A stretch of DNA of 64,000 bases, taken from NCBI RefSeq assembly GCF_019598945.1, contig NZ_CP080598.1:3472001-3536000 (forward strand), in the 5' to 3' direction. A program made the position numbers and the translations under genes. The notes below the pieces were generated by a model that saw only the letters and a list, made by a program, of their open reading frames with translations, searched no databases and had not been told where the DNA came from. Shown one piece after another: positions 912-30,969 of this stretch (positions are counted from its first letter, which is position 1; every line of letters starts with the position of its first letter). The stretch is from Sphaerospermopsis torques-reginae ITEP-024 (lineage in GTDB: Bacteria; Cyanobacteriota; Cyanobacteriia; Cyanobacteriales; Nostocaceae).

Positions 912-1289
912 CTGACATCTCCGAAAATGAATGTAGGGGCAATTCATGAATTGATCAGCCTGATTACTATTACTAAATAAATCAAAAATAGTCGGTTTTA
1001 AACGACTTCAGCTATCAGACAGGGAATTTATTCCCTGGCTTTAATGATTAGCTTTTATTACATGGCAAGCCTTTTTCCTCTGGGTTTTCACTAGGTAAGT
1101 CATACATTGTGGGTAAATTTTCCCACGGGGGAAGGGGTGGATTTGATTGTAAAATCTGGGGAGGGGAGAAATTTATAAATAGATTCAAGAAATTTTCCTG
1201 CCTTAATTCCCAGTTTAGTGACTATTATGATATATTGGTCTAAAAATACGCTAAACTCTGAAATATTCCCGGATTCAGGAGTTATACTC

Positions 1290-1973
1290 GTGCTTGATGA
1301 CATTTTTCGCAAGAGACTACAAGATTTACAAGATCACCTTGAGCAAGACCGAGAATTACTCAAAGAATTTGAGAACGCATTGAGGGACGACGACGACATC
1401 CTCAGAGTTAGGAGGTATAAAAAACAAGTCAGAATCATCAAGAAATCTATTGCTAATTATACAGAACAATATCAAGAAATAGAACAAAAGTTGGCGGCAA
1501 CTTCTGAACCTCAAATGCAGGTGGTAAAAAATCAATTGCAATTAATAGAAAGCCAAATAGATCAAATAGACGCAAAGTTAAATATTGTCCTTGTTAATCA
1601 GGATTCACTACTAAATCGTTATGATGCTGCTGAACAATCCATATTGAAAGTTATTATTGAGCAACTAAATCACACTCAATTAGTTCTGATAGAAAAGATG
1701 CTAGATGCCATAGAAACTAATCAAATATCTGAATCAGAAATGCTGCAAATGTTGGCAGTGTTAGAGGAACGTATACCTTCTTTACCACCAAGCAGTCAGC
1801 CAGCAGTTGCAGAAATTATTAAATCTCCTCAACTGGATGCAAAACATAAATTAGTAGTTTCTATGCCTATTGTTCCCTTTTTGATAAATTATGAAGGTGA
1901 ATTAGAATTAGGCACTGGTTTTAATCTTCAGTCTACTTGGGATTACATTAAGAATAAATTACGGAGAGAATAG
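1290..1973 (+). CDS. Unknown helical protein with an effector-associated-type N-terminal module, partner of the DGR target
   Basis: I chose the GTG at 1290 because AGGAG at 1276-1280 sits at the right distance; an upstream ATG at 1218 would add 24 unlikely residues and lacks a ribosome site. Residues about 1-60 form a charged two-helix module (LQDLQDHLEQDRELLKEFE...) resembling the N-terminus of the next gene. The middle is coiled-coil-like with many Gln, Glu and Asn. The C-terminal 50 residues contain a hydrophobic strand region (MPIVPFLINYEGELELG) and no catalytic motif. The next gene starts 3 bp after the stop, so the two are surely co-transcribed. I infer an adaptor for the FGE-fold sensor; the exact family is not recognised. 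Confidence 0.7.
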   Translation: MLDDIFRKRLQDLQDHLEQDRELLKEFENALRDDDDILRVRRYKKQVRIIKKSIANYTEQYQEIEQKLAATSEPQMQVVKNQLQLIESQIDQIDAKLNIVLVNQDSLLNRYDAAEQSILKVIIEQLNHTQLVLIEKMLDAIETNQISESEMLQMLAVLEERIPSLPPSSQPAVAEIIKSPQLDAKHKLVVSMPIVPFLINYEGELELGTGFNLQSTWDYIKNKLRRE

Positions 1974-1976
1974 ATT

Positions 1977-2954
1977 GTGAATTTGCGTCAACATTTGGAA
2001 GAGCAATTAGAAACAGATTTTGATTTACTCAAGCAGTATGAAGATAAATTACGCTTTGAATATGATCCGGGTCAACGTGGTAATTGGAATAGTCAAATCG
2101 CACAAATAAAACAACAAATTAGTAAGCGTCAGCAGGAATTACAAAACTTACTTCAATCTTCTTCAACTCCAGTTGCAAATCAATCTTTTATCGAAGATTT
2201 GGGTTTTGATGTCAAATTAGAAATGGTTTATATTTCTGGCGGGACATTTTTAATGGGCGCACCAGAAAGTGAAGAAGGTAGTAGTGATGATGAACGTCCC
2301 CAACACTATGTAACTGTGAAACCTTTTTACATGGGGAAATACACCATTACCCAGGAACAATGGGAAAAAGTAGTTTATTCCTGTCCCACTGTTAAGAACT
2401 GGCTAGACCCCCATCCGTCTTATTTTAAAGGTGATAAATTACCTGTAGAACAAGTATCTTGGCACGATGCCGTCGAATTTTGTGCTAGACTAAGTAAGAA
2501 GACAGGACGACAATATCGTTTACCCAGCGAAGCGGAATGGGAATATGCTTGTCGTGCTGGTTCGGCAAAACCTTTTGCTTTTGGTGACACAATCACCACA
2601 GATGTGGTAAACTATGATGGTAACTACACCTATGGTAATGCCTCCAAAGGAAAATATCGAGAACAAACAACAGCAGTAGGAAATTTTAAGCCCAACGCCT
2701 TTGGTTTATATGATATGCACGGCAATGTCTGGGAATGGTGCGCCGACACATGGCATCATAGCTATAATGGTGCGCCCAGTGATGGCAGTGCTTGGAAAAA
2801 TGATAATGATAATCAATATCCTCTGCTGCGCGGTGGTTCGTGGAGCAACAACCCTCCTAACTGTCGTTCTGCCAATCGCAGCAGGGTTACCCCCGACAAC
2901 CGTAACCGCAATGTGGGTTTTCGGGTGGTGTGCGGTGGTGCTGGCAGGACTTAG
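1977..2954 (+). CDS. DGR target: helical N-terminus plus FGE-sulfatase (C-type-lectin fold) domain ending in a variable repeat
   Basis: GTG start with GGAGAG just upstream. Residues 1-60 form a helical module like that of the preceding protein. Residues about 78-320 are a formylglycine-generating-enzyme/sulfatase-modifying-factor domain: MVYISGGTFLMGAPESE, the HDAVEFC strand, RLPSEAEWEYACRAG, GLYDMHGNVWEWCAD, and the terminal RGGSW...GFRVV block. Proteins of this type mostly lack FGE enzymatic activity and use the lectin-like fold to bind ligands. Codons 283-324 are the DGR variable repeat; changed residues are S290, P294, S302, V304 and R311, where the template codes N, Q, N, N and N. I infer a hypervariable ligand or antigen sensor, co-expressed with the upstream partner. 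Confidence 0.9.
   Translation: MNLRQHLEEQLETDFDLLKQYEDKLRFEYDPGQRGNWNSQIAQIKQQISKRQQELQNLLQSSSTPVANQSFIEDLGFDVKLEMVYISGGTFLMGAPESEEGSSDDERPQHYVTVKPFYMGKYTITQEQWEKVVYSCPTVKNWLDPHPSYFKGDKLPVEQVSWHDAVEFCARLSKKTGRQYRLPSEAEWEYACRAGSAKPFAFGDTITTDVVNYDGNYTYGNASKGKYREQTTAVGNFKPNAFGLYDMHGNVWEWCADTWHHSYNGAPSDGSAWKNDNDNQYPLLRGGSWSNNPPNCRSANRSRVTPDNRNRNVGFRVVCGGAGRT
2823..2947 (+). repeat. DGR variable repeat (VR)
   Basis: This 125-bp segment at the 3' end of the FGE-fold gene aligns without gaps to 3268-3392. Eight mismatches (2845, 2857, 2858, 2881, 2886, 2887, 2907, 2908) all face an adenine in the template: four A to G, two A to C, two A to T. None of the roughly 97 non-adenine positions differs. 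The last 36 bases (from GTGGGTTTTCGG on) are identical and nearly A-free, as expected for the initiation-of-mutagenic-homology end. Confidence 0.95.
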
Positions 2955-3043
2955 TAGCCCTTTACACTCTTGCCCTTTTGCCCTCTACCCTTCTTCTCTT
3001 TACTCTCTTCAAGCGGAACGAAGTGGAGCGATCAAATTTTTTT

Positions 3044-3117
3044 TAGATTTTTGGGTCTTTAGATTTTTGGGTCTTTAGATTTTTGGGTTTTTAGATTTTT
3101 GGGTCTTTAGATTTTTA
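3044..3117 (+). repeat. 16-bp tandem repeat between VR and TR
   Basis: Four to five imperfect copies of GATTTTTGGGTCTTTA run head to tail. The tract separates the variable repeat gene from the template region. Whether it has a role in the DGR RNA is not visible. Confidence 0.8.
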
Positions 3118-3267
3118 AGCAGCCTGAGTTACTTAATGTAACAAAAACTTTTACAGCCTTGGTTTGATTTATAATAACATATAAATCTGAATCTGTAAAT
3201 CAGATTCCTAAAGCTATTTATTTCTCTTGCTCAAACAAGAGGATAGAGAAGGGGCAGGCAATTCCGA

Positions 3268-3392
3268 CTGCTGCGCGGTGGTTCGTGGAACAACAACCCT
3301 CAAAACTGTCGTTCTGCCAATCGCAACAGGAATACCCCCGACAACCGTAACAACAATGTGGGTTTTCGGGTGGTGTGCGGTGGTGCTGGCAG
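3268..3392 (+). repeat. DGR template repeat (TR), non-coding
   Basis: Same orientation as the variable repeat and offset by 445 bp. It carries about 28 adenines clustered in AAC, AAT and CAA triplets at the positions that vary in the target. Read in the target frame it would encode a further FGE C-terminus, but there is no start codon or upstream domain, so it is a template and not a gene. Just upstream are two hairpins, GAATCTG/CAGATTC (3189-3207) and CTCTTG/CAAGAG (3224-3241), and a TATAAT box at 3170-3175 that could start the template RNA. About 120 bp of unique sequence follow (to 3510), which could be the spacer RNA. A reverse transcriptase and avd normally follow; here the next gene is a hydrolase on the other strand. 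Confidence 0.93.
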
Positions 3393-3596
3393 CACTCTCT
3401 TGTACCAGAACTGGCGGATGGGAATTCGTCGGGCGTGTCAAAAGAGAGTCCAGACCTGTCCCTGTGATGTTGGTGACAGCATCCAAACATAAAACTGGTT
3501 TGGGTAGCTTGGTAGGTGTCAAAACCGAAGACTTACCCAGCCTTAAAAAGCAAGGAGTCAGGAGTCAGGAGTCAGAATAGAAGAGAAAATCAACCA

Positions 3597-7022: not shown

Positions 7023-7081
7023 GATCAAAGTTATGAATTATTTGTTATAATACTATTAAATAACCTTTGAGGTTAATTAAT

Positions 7082-7600
7082 ATGACACAGGAATTAATAG
7101 ACTTGAGAAATAGTATTTTAGCAGGACGTTATCAAGATGCGTTAGCAATTGTAGATGAGTTAGAGGGGATGAGTAAACAGGCAATTTTAAGGAATATTCA
7201 ATCATTTTTAAGGGTGTTATTAATACATTTGATTAAAAATCAAATCGAACAAAGATTAACAAATTCTTGGGTAGCTTCTATTCGTAATTCCTTGGTAGAA
7301 ATCAAAAAAATCAATCTTAAAGAAAACAAAAAATCCTATTACATCAATAAAGATGAATGGGATACATGGTTACAGGAAGAAATAGAAGCAGCTATTTCTG
7401 ATGCAAGTATAGAAGTTGCAAATGGTATGTATACCCCATTTCAACTAGCGGAAATTGTTGATAAACAACAAATTATAAATGAAGCTCATAATTTATTACA
7501 ATTAACATATAATTATCCCAGTAGTGAATTAACGGGAATTATTAATAATGCTGTGATACAGTTCCCCGGTGGTGAAAATTGGAAATTAGGTAACAGCTAA
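7082..7600 (+). CDS. DUF29-like protein, tandem copy 1
   Basis: The ATG at 7082 is preferred over a TTG 15 bases upstream because the next copy begins with the same MTQELIDL. The 172-residue protein has the helical layout of the DUF29 family (ILAGRYQDALAIVDELEGM..., then RVLLIHLIKNQIEQRLTNSW), a family common in cyanobacteria and without known function. Its first 93 residues match the next gene at 90 positions, while the rest is far less similar. The 13-bp gap to copy 2 suggests one transcript. Two more typical DUF29 genes are at 36400 and 42146. Confidence 0.75.
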   Translation: MTQELIDLRNSILAGRYQDALAIVDELEGMSKQAILRNIQSFLRVLLIHLIKNQIEQRLTNSWVASIRNSLVEIKKINLKENKKSYYINKDEWDTWLQEEIEAAISDASIEVANGMYTPFQLAEIVDKQQIINEAHNLLQLTYNYPSSELTGIINNAVIQFPGGENWKLGNS

Positions 7601-7613
7601 GAGGTGATAAAAA

Positions 7614-8120
7614 ATGACACAGGAATTAATAGACTTGAGAAATAGTATTTTAGCGGGAAGATATGAAGATGCTTTGGCAATTGTAGATGAGTTAGAGGGG
7701 ATGAGTAAACAGGCAATTTTAAGGAATATTCAATCATTTTTAAGGGTGTTGTTAATACACTTGATTAAAAATCAAATAGAACAACGGTTAACAAATTCTT
7801 GGGTTGTATCTATTCGTAACGCTTTAGTAGAAATCAAAAAAATCAATCTTAAGGAAAACAAAAAATCCTATTACATCAATAAAGACGAATGGGAGAATTA
7901 TTTAGAAGAAGAAATAGAATTAGCAATAGGTGATGCAAGCGTAGAAGTTTTAAATGGTATCTACACTGAATTTCAACTAGCAGAAATAGTAGATAAAAAT
8001 AACATAATTTCCACTGCTTTAAATTTTCTAGAATTGACTTATGTACATTCCGTAAAAGACTTACCAAAAGCGATGACAGAAATTATTATTAAATTACCTG
8101 GTAGTGAAAAATGGCAATAA
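7614..8120 (+). CDS. DUF29-like protein, tandem copy 2
   Basis: 168 residues, ATG start with GAGGTGA upstream. The N-terminal 93 residues differ from copy 1 only at residues 18, 65 and 70; from residue 94 on the two proteins keep only scattered identity. That pattern fits tandem duplication with later gene conversion restricted to the 5' part. Function unknown. Confidence 0.75.
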   Translation: MTQELIDLRNSILAGRYEDALAIVDELEGMSKQAILRNIQSFLRVLLIHLIKNQIEQRLTNSWVVSIRNALVEIKKINLKENKKSYYINKDEWENYLEEEIELAIGDASVEVLNGIYTEFQLAEIVDKNNIISTALNFLELTYVHSVKDLPKAMTEIIIKLPGSEKWQ

Positions 8121-29668: not shown

Positions 29669-30969
29669 CCTCCCACAGTCGGATCACCAACTCGGTATAA
29701 ATCACCGAGTTCCCAACCTTCTTCTAATTTATCATTCAGCATTTCTTGATTAAGTCTTTTCATGGAAAAATGGGGTTGATTTTCAGAATAAAAACAATAA
29801 ACATTTTCTAAACAATCGGTAAAATGATCCAATAAATCAGGACTATGGGTAGTGATAATAATTTGTGTTTTTCTAGCAGCTTGTTTAATCCATTCTGCTA
29901 AAATTGGCATCCAGGAAACGTGCAAACCTAACTCTGGTTCATCAATAACTAATAATGAAGGTAGTACAGGAGAATGTAAAATAGTCGCCCAACATAACAT
30001 TCTCACAGTTCCATCAGACATTTCAGTTAAATAAAACGGCTCTGTATTTTTACTATCCTCAAAATACCATCCCACCGTTAAAGATAATCTACCCGAACGA
30101 ATAGAACGTAAACGACGAGTTTTAGGTAAAATCGCCCTCATAGCTTGATTAATGCTATCTTCAAAGTCAATATTTTCTTGGATTAAATTATCTAAAACTA
30201 AAGGTAAATTATCACCAGAAGCAGATAAATAAATATCACTTCCTCCTATTTTGTTTTCTGAATTTCTAATTTGATTCAAGTCCATATTATTGGCGTTATA
30301 AAATTGCCATTTAGAAATAAATTCTACTAAATCTCTTCTGGTTTTATACGCAGGTGTATTTTCCGGTGAATATTCACTATCTTCAAGTAACCTTGGTAGT
30401 ATAGTCAAACCTAAAGAATTAGTGGGTATGTTATCTAACCTTTCAAAGTGTGTTTTTGAATTTTGTTTTGGTGCATCATAAACTGAAACAACCCCTTTAC
30501 CAACTTCTTGATCATGAAACTTATAATAATAAAAAGGTGGTGATTCCAATTTACTTAAATTTTGTCCACTTAATAAAAACTCTTGTGAAATAACTACTTT
30601 ATTTCTCTTCCTATCCACGAAAAGGCTTAAAGTTAGCATTGTACTAAATTTATCAACTTGTGGATCATTTGGTGATTTTTGAGAGAAACAATAGCTAAAA
30701 TTAATAACAGCAGGACTTTCTACGCTATTATCTAAAATTCTATCAGCCCCAATTTTGCTCACTGCATCTTCAAAACTACTCACACCCCGACTTGCATCAG
30801 AAATAGTAGTTAAACAATCTTTCAAAAATTTCAAACAACTGATAAAATTACTTTTACCTGAACCATTAGAACCGATAAAAATATTCAAATTATCTAACTC
30901 TACAGGATGCGGTAAAGACAAATTTTTATAATTCTTATTTTCAATAAGTTGTAAAATAGTTTGATTCAT
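29656..30969 (-). CDS. AAA (AAA_21/OLD-like) ATPase
   Basis: 437 residues. Walker A GSNGSGKS at 33-40, Walker B LLVIDEPELGLH, and a following THSPDLLDHF switch are of the ABC/OLD-type ATPase family used in several anti-phage systems. The partner is the Toprim-like protein directly downstream. Similar ATPase plus Toprim pairs are known as PARIS and AbiL; membership in either is not shown. The end of the gene overlaps the partner start. The ParD/RelE pair lies beyond it on the other strand. Confidence 0.85.
   Translation of the reverse strand: MNQTILQLIENKNYKNLSLPHPVELDNLNIFIGSNGSGKSNFISCLKFLKDCLTTISDASRGVSSFEDAVSKIGADRILDNSVESPAVINFSYCFSQKSPNDPQVDKFSTMLTLSLFVDRKRNKVVISQEFLLSGQNLSKLESPPFYYYKFHDQEVGKGVVSVYDAPKQNSKTHFERLDNIPTNSLGLTILPRLLEDSEYSPENTPAYKTRRDLVEFISKWQFYNANNMDLNQIRNSENKIGGSDIYLSASGDNLPLVLDNLIQENIDFEDSINQAMRAILPKTRRLRSIRSGRLSLTVGWYFEDSKNTEPFYLTEMSDGTVRMLCWATILHSPVLPSLLVIDEPELGLHVSWMPILAEWIKQAARKTQIIITTHSPDLLDHFTDCLENVYCFYSENQPHFSMKRLNQEMLNDKLEEGWELGDLYRVGDPTVGGWPW

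Follow-up and report, generated by a model that had tools for sequence, protein, structure and literature searches.

A diversity-generating retroelement cassette without an adjoining reverse transcriptase in Sphaerospermopsis torques-reginae, likely rewritten in trans

Can a gene still be diversified from its own template through a diversity-generating retroelement (DGR) when no reverse transcriptase (RT) lies beside them? This question is raised by a locus of Sphaerospermopsis torques-reginae ITEP-024, whose genome is a single contig of 5,254,442 bases; we analysed 64,000 nucleotides of it (3,472,001-3,536,000), hereafter called the window, and coordinates below are window positions unless they refer to the genome. 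The functional unit, spanning about 1977 to 3548, reaches past a pair of repeats and comprises, in this order, a target gene with an FGE/C-type-lectin domain, a 316-bp gap, the template repeat TR1 and a spacer of about 160 nt. Compared with an autonomous DGR, the locus has the adenine-directed repeat pair and the lectin-like target but neither an RT nor an Avd in cis. We consider it likely that this is a cassette whose adjoining RT and avd genes were probably both lost, and whose VR probably continues to be rewritten in trans, by the RT and Avd encoded at 4.88 Mb. The features are as follows:

1218..1973, + strand: upstream gene, 251 aa from the GTG in the ORF list (a later GTG start is possible)
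1977..2954, + strand: variable protein (VP), 325 aa, with an FGE-sulfatase/C-type-lectin-like domain at residues 82-318
2823..2947, + strand: variable repeat (VR) at the 3' end of the VP gene, from the repeat alignment and variants P0001/P0003/P0005
2946..2951, + strand: VR-side end motif AGGACT, a likely IMH-type junction (TR counterpart AGCACT at 3391-3396)
2955..3036, + strand: pyrimidine-rich flank after the VR, common to RT-less cassettes of other genera (comparison with relatives)
3037..3210, + strand: junction region, site of avd and RT in RT-linked relatives (low-complexity repeats, then 3145-3210)
3211..3240, + strand: remnant of an RT gene, last codons (KLFISLAQTR, against KIFASLVATR of an intact RT)
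3224..3241, + strand: 5' hairpin of the presumed template RNA just before TR1 (CTCTTG-loop-CAAGAG, read from the sequence)
3268..3392, + strand: template repeat TR1, from the repeat alignment
3388..3548, + strand: predicted structured TR-RNA spacer (Sp), related to Rfam RT-14 RNA, from covariance model R1
4,880,575-4,880,686 of the genome: TR2, the RT2 locus's own template

The repeat pair and its variable protein

VR and TR1 are 125-base direct repeats offset by 445 that differ at eight positions (3290, 3302, 3303, 3326, 3331, 3332, 3352 and 3353 in TR1), all of them A in the downstream copy. Thus, eight of the 28 adenines of TR1 are changed and none of its 97 other bases. Our alignment reproduced the repeat coordinates and mismatches reported by the first-pass annotation; its figure of about 6e-6 for the chance of such a pattern holds in order of magnitude, the value that we compute being 2.6e-6 (hypergeometric, eight of eight random mismatches on A, 28 A among 125). 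Five codons change from TR1 to VR (N-S, Q-P, N-S, N-V, N-R), exactly the replacements of Asn/Gln by Ser, Pro, Ser, Val and Arg that had been read earlier, and in a whole-genome search the best match of TR1 besides itself is the window VR, at 93%. VP matches PF03781 (FGE-sulfatase) with an E-value of 2.3e-63, which agrees with the earlier placing of the VR at the end of an FGE-sulfatase-fold (C-type-lectin) domain, and is related by sequence to the variable protein TvpA of Treponema denticola (2y3c, E 3.4e-24) and to PvdO (5hha, E 5.5e-50), suggesting a C-type-lectin-like fold at the VR end. Given the strictly A-directed mismatches, the FGE/C-type-lectin-like target end, and a DGR-type RT with Avd elsewhere in the genome, the original DGR reading stands: the window pair is a real DGR target and its template.

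The first mismatch beyond the repeat is a C at 3393 on the TR side and a G at 2948 on the VR side. The same post-repeat letter differs in 55 of 58 family TR/VR pairs with few non-A mismatches, and 39 of these 58 combine AGGA[C/T]T in the VR with AG[C/T][A/G]CT in the TR. This mismatch therefore looks meaningful, and is reminiscent of the IMH/IMH* end difference of the Bordetella phage BPP-1 DGR (PMC12875486).

Concerning the upstream gene, there are no family matches above cut-off. Its N-terminus and that of VP are alike (32% identity, E 6e-7, in a helical-looking segment; window 1218-2240), and this common segment is perhaps a pairing module of a conflict system. The gene adjoins VP in four of the five orthologous loci described below (L307, L308, L309 and L311, 227-228 residues); at the fifth, L310, the match spans 22 residues only. 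Further downstream in the window (7067-8120) lie two neighbouring similar genes whose DNA is 90% identical over 300 bases, the first of which matches DUF29.

A cassette with no adjoining RT, and a distant RT

We could not find any DGR-type RT near the window in a whole-genome search with RVT_1 (PF00078), which returned two RTs, both away from it. Over the whole 64-kb window, the best tblastn hits had E-values of 5.8 for the DGR-type RT of this genome (RT2) and 1.0 for Avd, and none of ten ORFs scanned around the locus has an Avd or RT family match. An alignment of 333 nt without gaps links window positions 3207-3539 to pANA02 (NC_019429), a plasmid of Anabaena sp. 90; it covers the hairpin, the TR and the spacer, the last being 89% identical, and starts inside the 3' end of the plasmid's RT gene. 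It is on this DNA alignment, starting at window 3207, that the RT remnant is based, a protein match alone being weak (E 8.2). The pANA02 DGR is complete in cis (FGE gene, FGE gene, avd, RT, TR, spacer), whereas the window cassette is without avd and RT. From the KLFISLAQTR remnant and the pANA02 gene order, avd and almost the entire RT appear to have been lost from the window locus, through a deletion that appears to have spared the hairpin within the last RT codons. The gap that lacks avd and RT holds TTTAGATTTTTGGGTC repeats (3042-3121), which are much shorter in the cyanobacterial genome G154. No terminators were called on the + strand of the flank 2955-3036, nor any + strand promoter before TR1.

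The DGR-type RT of this genome, RT2 (352 aa), lies at 4,880,706-4,881,761 on the minus strand, about 1.4 million bases from the window. Its motifs, as read from the sequence, are IGNLTSQ and YVDD, which fit the rule for DGR RTs, (I/V/L)GxxxSQ and YxDD (PMC3521204), and the genome thus encodes an intact DGR RT. RT2 is adjoined upstream by an Avd (NF033474, E 1.8e-39; bAvd, E 1.2e-16), and a 915-residue FGE-domain protein, with a VWA match below cut-off, also lies upstream. The second RT (L035, 451348-452178, a 276-codon frame) is retron-like (NF038237, E 2.2e-95, below the model cut-off); we rejected it as a helper of TR1 given its retron-like family matches and the QGAPTSP of its domain 4.

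The RT2 locus has its own template, TR2, which aligns with TR1 over about 330 nt that include the 5' hairpin, the TR and the 3' spacer. Compared with TR2, mismatches fall at its adenines in 16 of 18 cases for the local VR (4882.7 kb), 11 of 12 for a VR at 4040.4 kb, and 14 of 15 for a VR at 3418.2 kb. The search of the rest of the genome for DGR RTs and other variable repeats that the first-pass annotation had proposed thus uncovered one DGR-type RT, TR2, and three more VRs. We also considered V_4365 (L038, 4365139-4365836) as a current target of TR1 and rejected it, as only 18 of its 41 mismatches are at A. The end of L038, an FGE gene, is closer to TR1 than to TR2; the gene is perhaps a target of a lost third template.

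To describe the spacer, we built a covariance model, R1, from 30 spacers, the window's included (two from this genome and 28 from other family genomes). Its consensus has 43 pairs, 27 of which show two-sided changes in one or more of the sequences. The window spacer scores 171.1 bits and forms 41 of the 43 pairs; in two of them (alignment columns 12-59 and 13-58), both partners depart from the usual pair. The RT-14 RNA model RF02921 matches both spacers of this genome over its full length (1-144) below the cut-off of 48.1 bits, with 34.8 bits (E 0.074) for the window and 44.6 bits for TR2. By this covariation, the spacer appears to be conserved as a structured RNA. In BPP-1, the RT-Avd complex is recruited by the 3' spacer of the TR-RNA, where the priming adenine also lies (PMC12875486), and by analogy the window spacer may recruit RT-Avd in the same way. 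A short repeat of the AAGGAGTCAGGAGTCAGG type lies just after the spacer (3546-3579). Dozens of near-identical copies of it occur in the ITEP-024 genome as well as in the other genome of the genus (G031), where we found neither a spacer RNA nor an RT of this type, FGE paralogues being present.

These elements suggest how the cassette would operate. Transcription of TR1 would yield an RNA to which RT2-Avd binds at the 3' spacer; adenines of this RNA would be miscopied into cDNA; the cDNA would home into the VR beside the end motif; and the changed lectin-like face of the protein would alter what VP senses.

Cassettes without an RT in other genomes

A search with VP in 217 family genomes found five besides its own with a match that includes the N-terminus (E up to 1e-105, 70-78% identity). 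In one of them, G154, which belongs to another genus, the VP ortholog is followed by a TR and spacer 93% identical to those of the window over 343 nt, with no RT in between. Between the two loci, the stretch 3145-3241, which contains the RT remnant, shows two mismatches and one 2-nt insertion, with 3145-3210 identical; the RT-less junction is therefore most simply taken as shared. At the other four orthologous loci, no TR was found in the fetched flanks (L308, L309 and L311 have matches to the VR region only, L310 none).

Comparison of the two cassettes is informative about their later history. The VR of G154 differs from its own TR at 13 of 27 adenines and at none of 98 other bases. The window and G154 TRs differ at seven sites, and all nine non-A letters at these sites (four in the window, five in G154) are carried by the respective VR. 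The two VRs differ at 20 sites, which are those seven plus 13 where both TRs have A, and their own adenine changes number eight in the window and 13 in G154. The first-pass annotation had held that non-A mismatches in equal number, or parallel drift of the repeats, in relatives would speak against a DGR; in G154 there are no non-A mismatches, and the VR of each cassette goes with the TR beside it. An intact RT is encoded on another contig of G154, together with a TR/VR pair of its own (18 of 28 A and no non-A changed), and this RT is only 64% identical to RT2. As each VR tracks its own diverged TR and has separate A changes, the sequences indicate that TR-to-VR copying continued after the lineages split, without an RT in cis and in genomes with different RTs, most likely in trans.

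Protein variants agree with this pattern when compared with the translation of the window TR1 (41 residues, 15 codons with A). All eight differences of P0001 (94% identical; p 6.7e-5), all 12 of P0003 (84%, Sphaerospermopsis sp. FACHB-1094; p 5.8e-8), and ten of 11 of P0005 (79%; p 2.5e-5) fall at A-containing codons. Of the 20 differences between P0001 and the window protein, nine lie inside the 41-residue VR.

How common are such cassettes? In 145 family genomes, R1 searches run with stricter filters gave 138 spacer matches, of which we kept the 109 with at least 90 bits, leaving out 29. Among these, 47 follow an intact RT and 62 are without one in cis, three of the latter having less than 1500 nt of contig upstream, so that an RT could be cut off there. 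The 62 comprise 17 orphans with an intact RT elsewhere in the genome, 38 orphans without, and seven spacers beside a partial RT. Conversely, 47 of 48 intact RTs have a spacer match within 2 kb downstream. The 38 orphans in genomes where no intact RT was found reject the idea that a lost cis RT always has a stand-in elsewhere in the genome.

We found a VR for 46 of the 47 RT-linked spacers and for five of the seven beside a partial RT. Among the orphans, ten of the 17 with an RT elsewhere have one, and so do 15 of the 38 in genomes without; for 32 of the 62 spacers without an intact cis RT, there is no VR in the fetched stretch. Taking the best VR per locus on the same strand, and calling clean a pair with at most four non-A mismatches in 115 positions (a cut that we set), there are 36 clean RT-linked pairs, eight for orphans with an RT elsewhere, nine for orphans without, and five beside partial RTs, these five not being counted among the 17 clean orphan pairs. 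For the RT-linked pairs and the two orphan classes, the changed share is 47%, 45% and 48% of A sites and 0.5%, 1.0% and 0.6% of non-A sites, respectively. Ten of the 46 cis pairs have 11 to 35 non-A mismatches; they are kept in the totals and lie outside the clean set, and are probably gapped or out of register. At least six non-A mismatches are present in eight of 25 orphan pairs, and with 32 of 62 spacers lacking a VR, many RT-less spacers are probably fossils.

Nine of the 17 clean orphan pairs occur in genomes where no intact DGR RT was detected. When 13 RT-negative genomes, among them these nine, were searched with RVT_1, G009 had no match at all; the others yielded mostly long frames (over 500 codons), which are probably group II intron RTs, and partial DGR RTs. 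The RT-negative genomes with clean pairs may have lost their RT recently, may miss a replicon or plasmid, or may use another enzyme. RT relatives occur on 26 plasmid records, with identities of 63-71% in six of these, making plasmid-borne RTs a possible source. The plasmid AP018311.1 of Aulosira laxa NIES-50, which is not among these 26, carries a spacer-like sequence (30742-30823) that is possibly a plasmid-borne RT-less cassette.

One form of the cassette is compact, with about 180-200 bases between VR and TR; eight loci from six genera (L088, L113, L127, L132, L135, L095, L126 and L096) have a gap that is homologous along most of its extent. In five non-overlapping contrasts between RT-less cassettes, picked among 29 within-group pairs so that no locus is used twice, both VRs follow their own TRs at 33 of the 36 non-A differences between TRs. 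Tracking is absent from the single-site pairs L135-L095 and L131-L137, and the VRs of L095 and L137 are decayed. Some adenines at usual AAC codons have been lost from the TRs of L126 (G108), L084 (G096), L095 (G006) and L307 (G154); in L126, L307 and L084 the non-A letters there are much as in the own VR, as if the VR had been copied back into the TR, and in L095 the TR and VR letters differ at these sites.

In the spacer tree, 14 of 18 compact cassettes fall in one part (39 rows, 32 orphans; support 99/75). The window TR1 lies away from it and groups with the RT-linked G027 (support 96/74), a placement that does not support a single origin of all RT-less cassettes and argues that RT loss has happened more than once.

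Competing explanations and known systems

If the RT had been deleted recently, the eight A differences could be the last trace of activity in cis, and TR1 would now be inert. The absence of RT and avd with an RT remnant left, and the many RT-less spacers elsewhere with no VR or a decayed one, are in line with such a relic, as is the fraction of TR1 adenines changed, which at 8/28 (29%) is below the median of 47% of the 36 clean RT-linked pairs, so that homing at the window VR may be slow or have stopped. However, another genus has the RT-less junction too, and since the split each VR has changed in step with its TR while gathering A changes of its own; P0001, 94% identical overall, concentrates nine of its 20 differences in the VR; and the spacer pairs are intact. 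We thus regard an inert relic as unlikely. An RT-free gene conversion that keeps the repeats alike while old adenine changes persist would suit their direct orientation and starts 445 bp apart, as well as the non-A changes that TR and VR have in common in each lineage, but it would also erase the adenine differences; that the non-A sites all agree while A sites differ per lineage (eight and 13), as in clean RT-linked pairs, makes it very unlikely.

DGR loci contain repeats that can collapse, and avd and RT might have been dropped between VR and TR during assembly. Since the genome is one 5.25-Mb contig and the separate G154 assembly has the same junction (3145-3241), we give hardly any credence to such an artefact. 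As TR1 is related to TR2, and TR2 fits remote VRs, the window VR might instead be a target of the RT-linked TR2, TR1 being a decayed copy. The mismatch pattern refutes this and leaves it next to no probability, the VR having 29 mismatches in 106 positions against TR2, 15 of them non-A, and only eight in 125, all A, against TR1. We therefore retain the reading of a cassette rewritten in trans by RT2-Avd.

Parts of this arrangement have precedents. Cyanobacterial RT-linked DGRs with C-type-lectin targets and remote variable proteins have been described (Vallota-Eastman et al., 2020, PMC7517822); these share with the present case the kind of target domain and the assignment of remote targets to the genome's DGR, here TR2 with its three VRs. 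As presented there, remote genes are recognized as targets by homology to the DGR's TR, whereas here a second template and spacer lie beside their own target, far from the RT. In Thiohalocapsa PB-PSB1, loci without DGR parts were proposed to be diversified in trans from another locus, and the incomplete loci DGR 3 and 7 were taken to owe their diversity either to earlier activity or to cells in which intact variants are present (Dore et al., 2024, PMC10907252). The trans cases of that account have VRs matched to the TR of another locus, whereas here the RT is missing, the TR is local, and tracking is seen between genera.

DGRs with several TRs, as here, are also known (Yan et al., 2019, PMC6642488; Treponema denticola, PMC4891356); in the descriptions consulted, these are TRs called together in one DGR, or strain variants, and no cross-genus RT-less cassette is mentioned. 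In BPP-1, unlike in the window, avd, TR, spacer and RT are adjacent. Hypermutation has been examined in Nostoc punctiforme (PMC12691664), and the DGRscan work allowed partial systems without an RT in scans of metagenome contigs (PMC4159848). The open-licence literature searched yielded no description of RT-less target-template cassettes maintained across genera. Remote targets, diversification in trans and multiple TRs being already known, what appears new here is the cross-genus RT-less target-template cassette, for which the step in trans is the one we infer.

On balance, we favour the view that non-autonomous DGRs are widespread in Nostocaceae-type cyanobacteria, as compact target-plus-template cassettes that use a resident chromosomal or plasmid RT-Avd. 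The enzyme would then be a shared mutator for separately templated sensor genes, and the cassettes would outlive and exchange RTs. The DGR survey of Roux et al. (2021, PMC8144416) starts from the RT in its step i; such RT-first surveys would miss RT-less cassettes, and hypermutated genes may therefore be undercounted. With one DGR RT and two separate templates, the genome of S. torques-reginae offers a natural test of what RT-Avd recognizes in the template RNA, and of the mutator enzyme as a shared resource.
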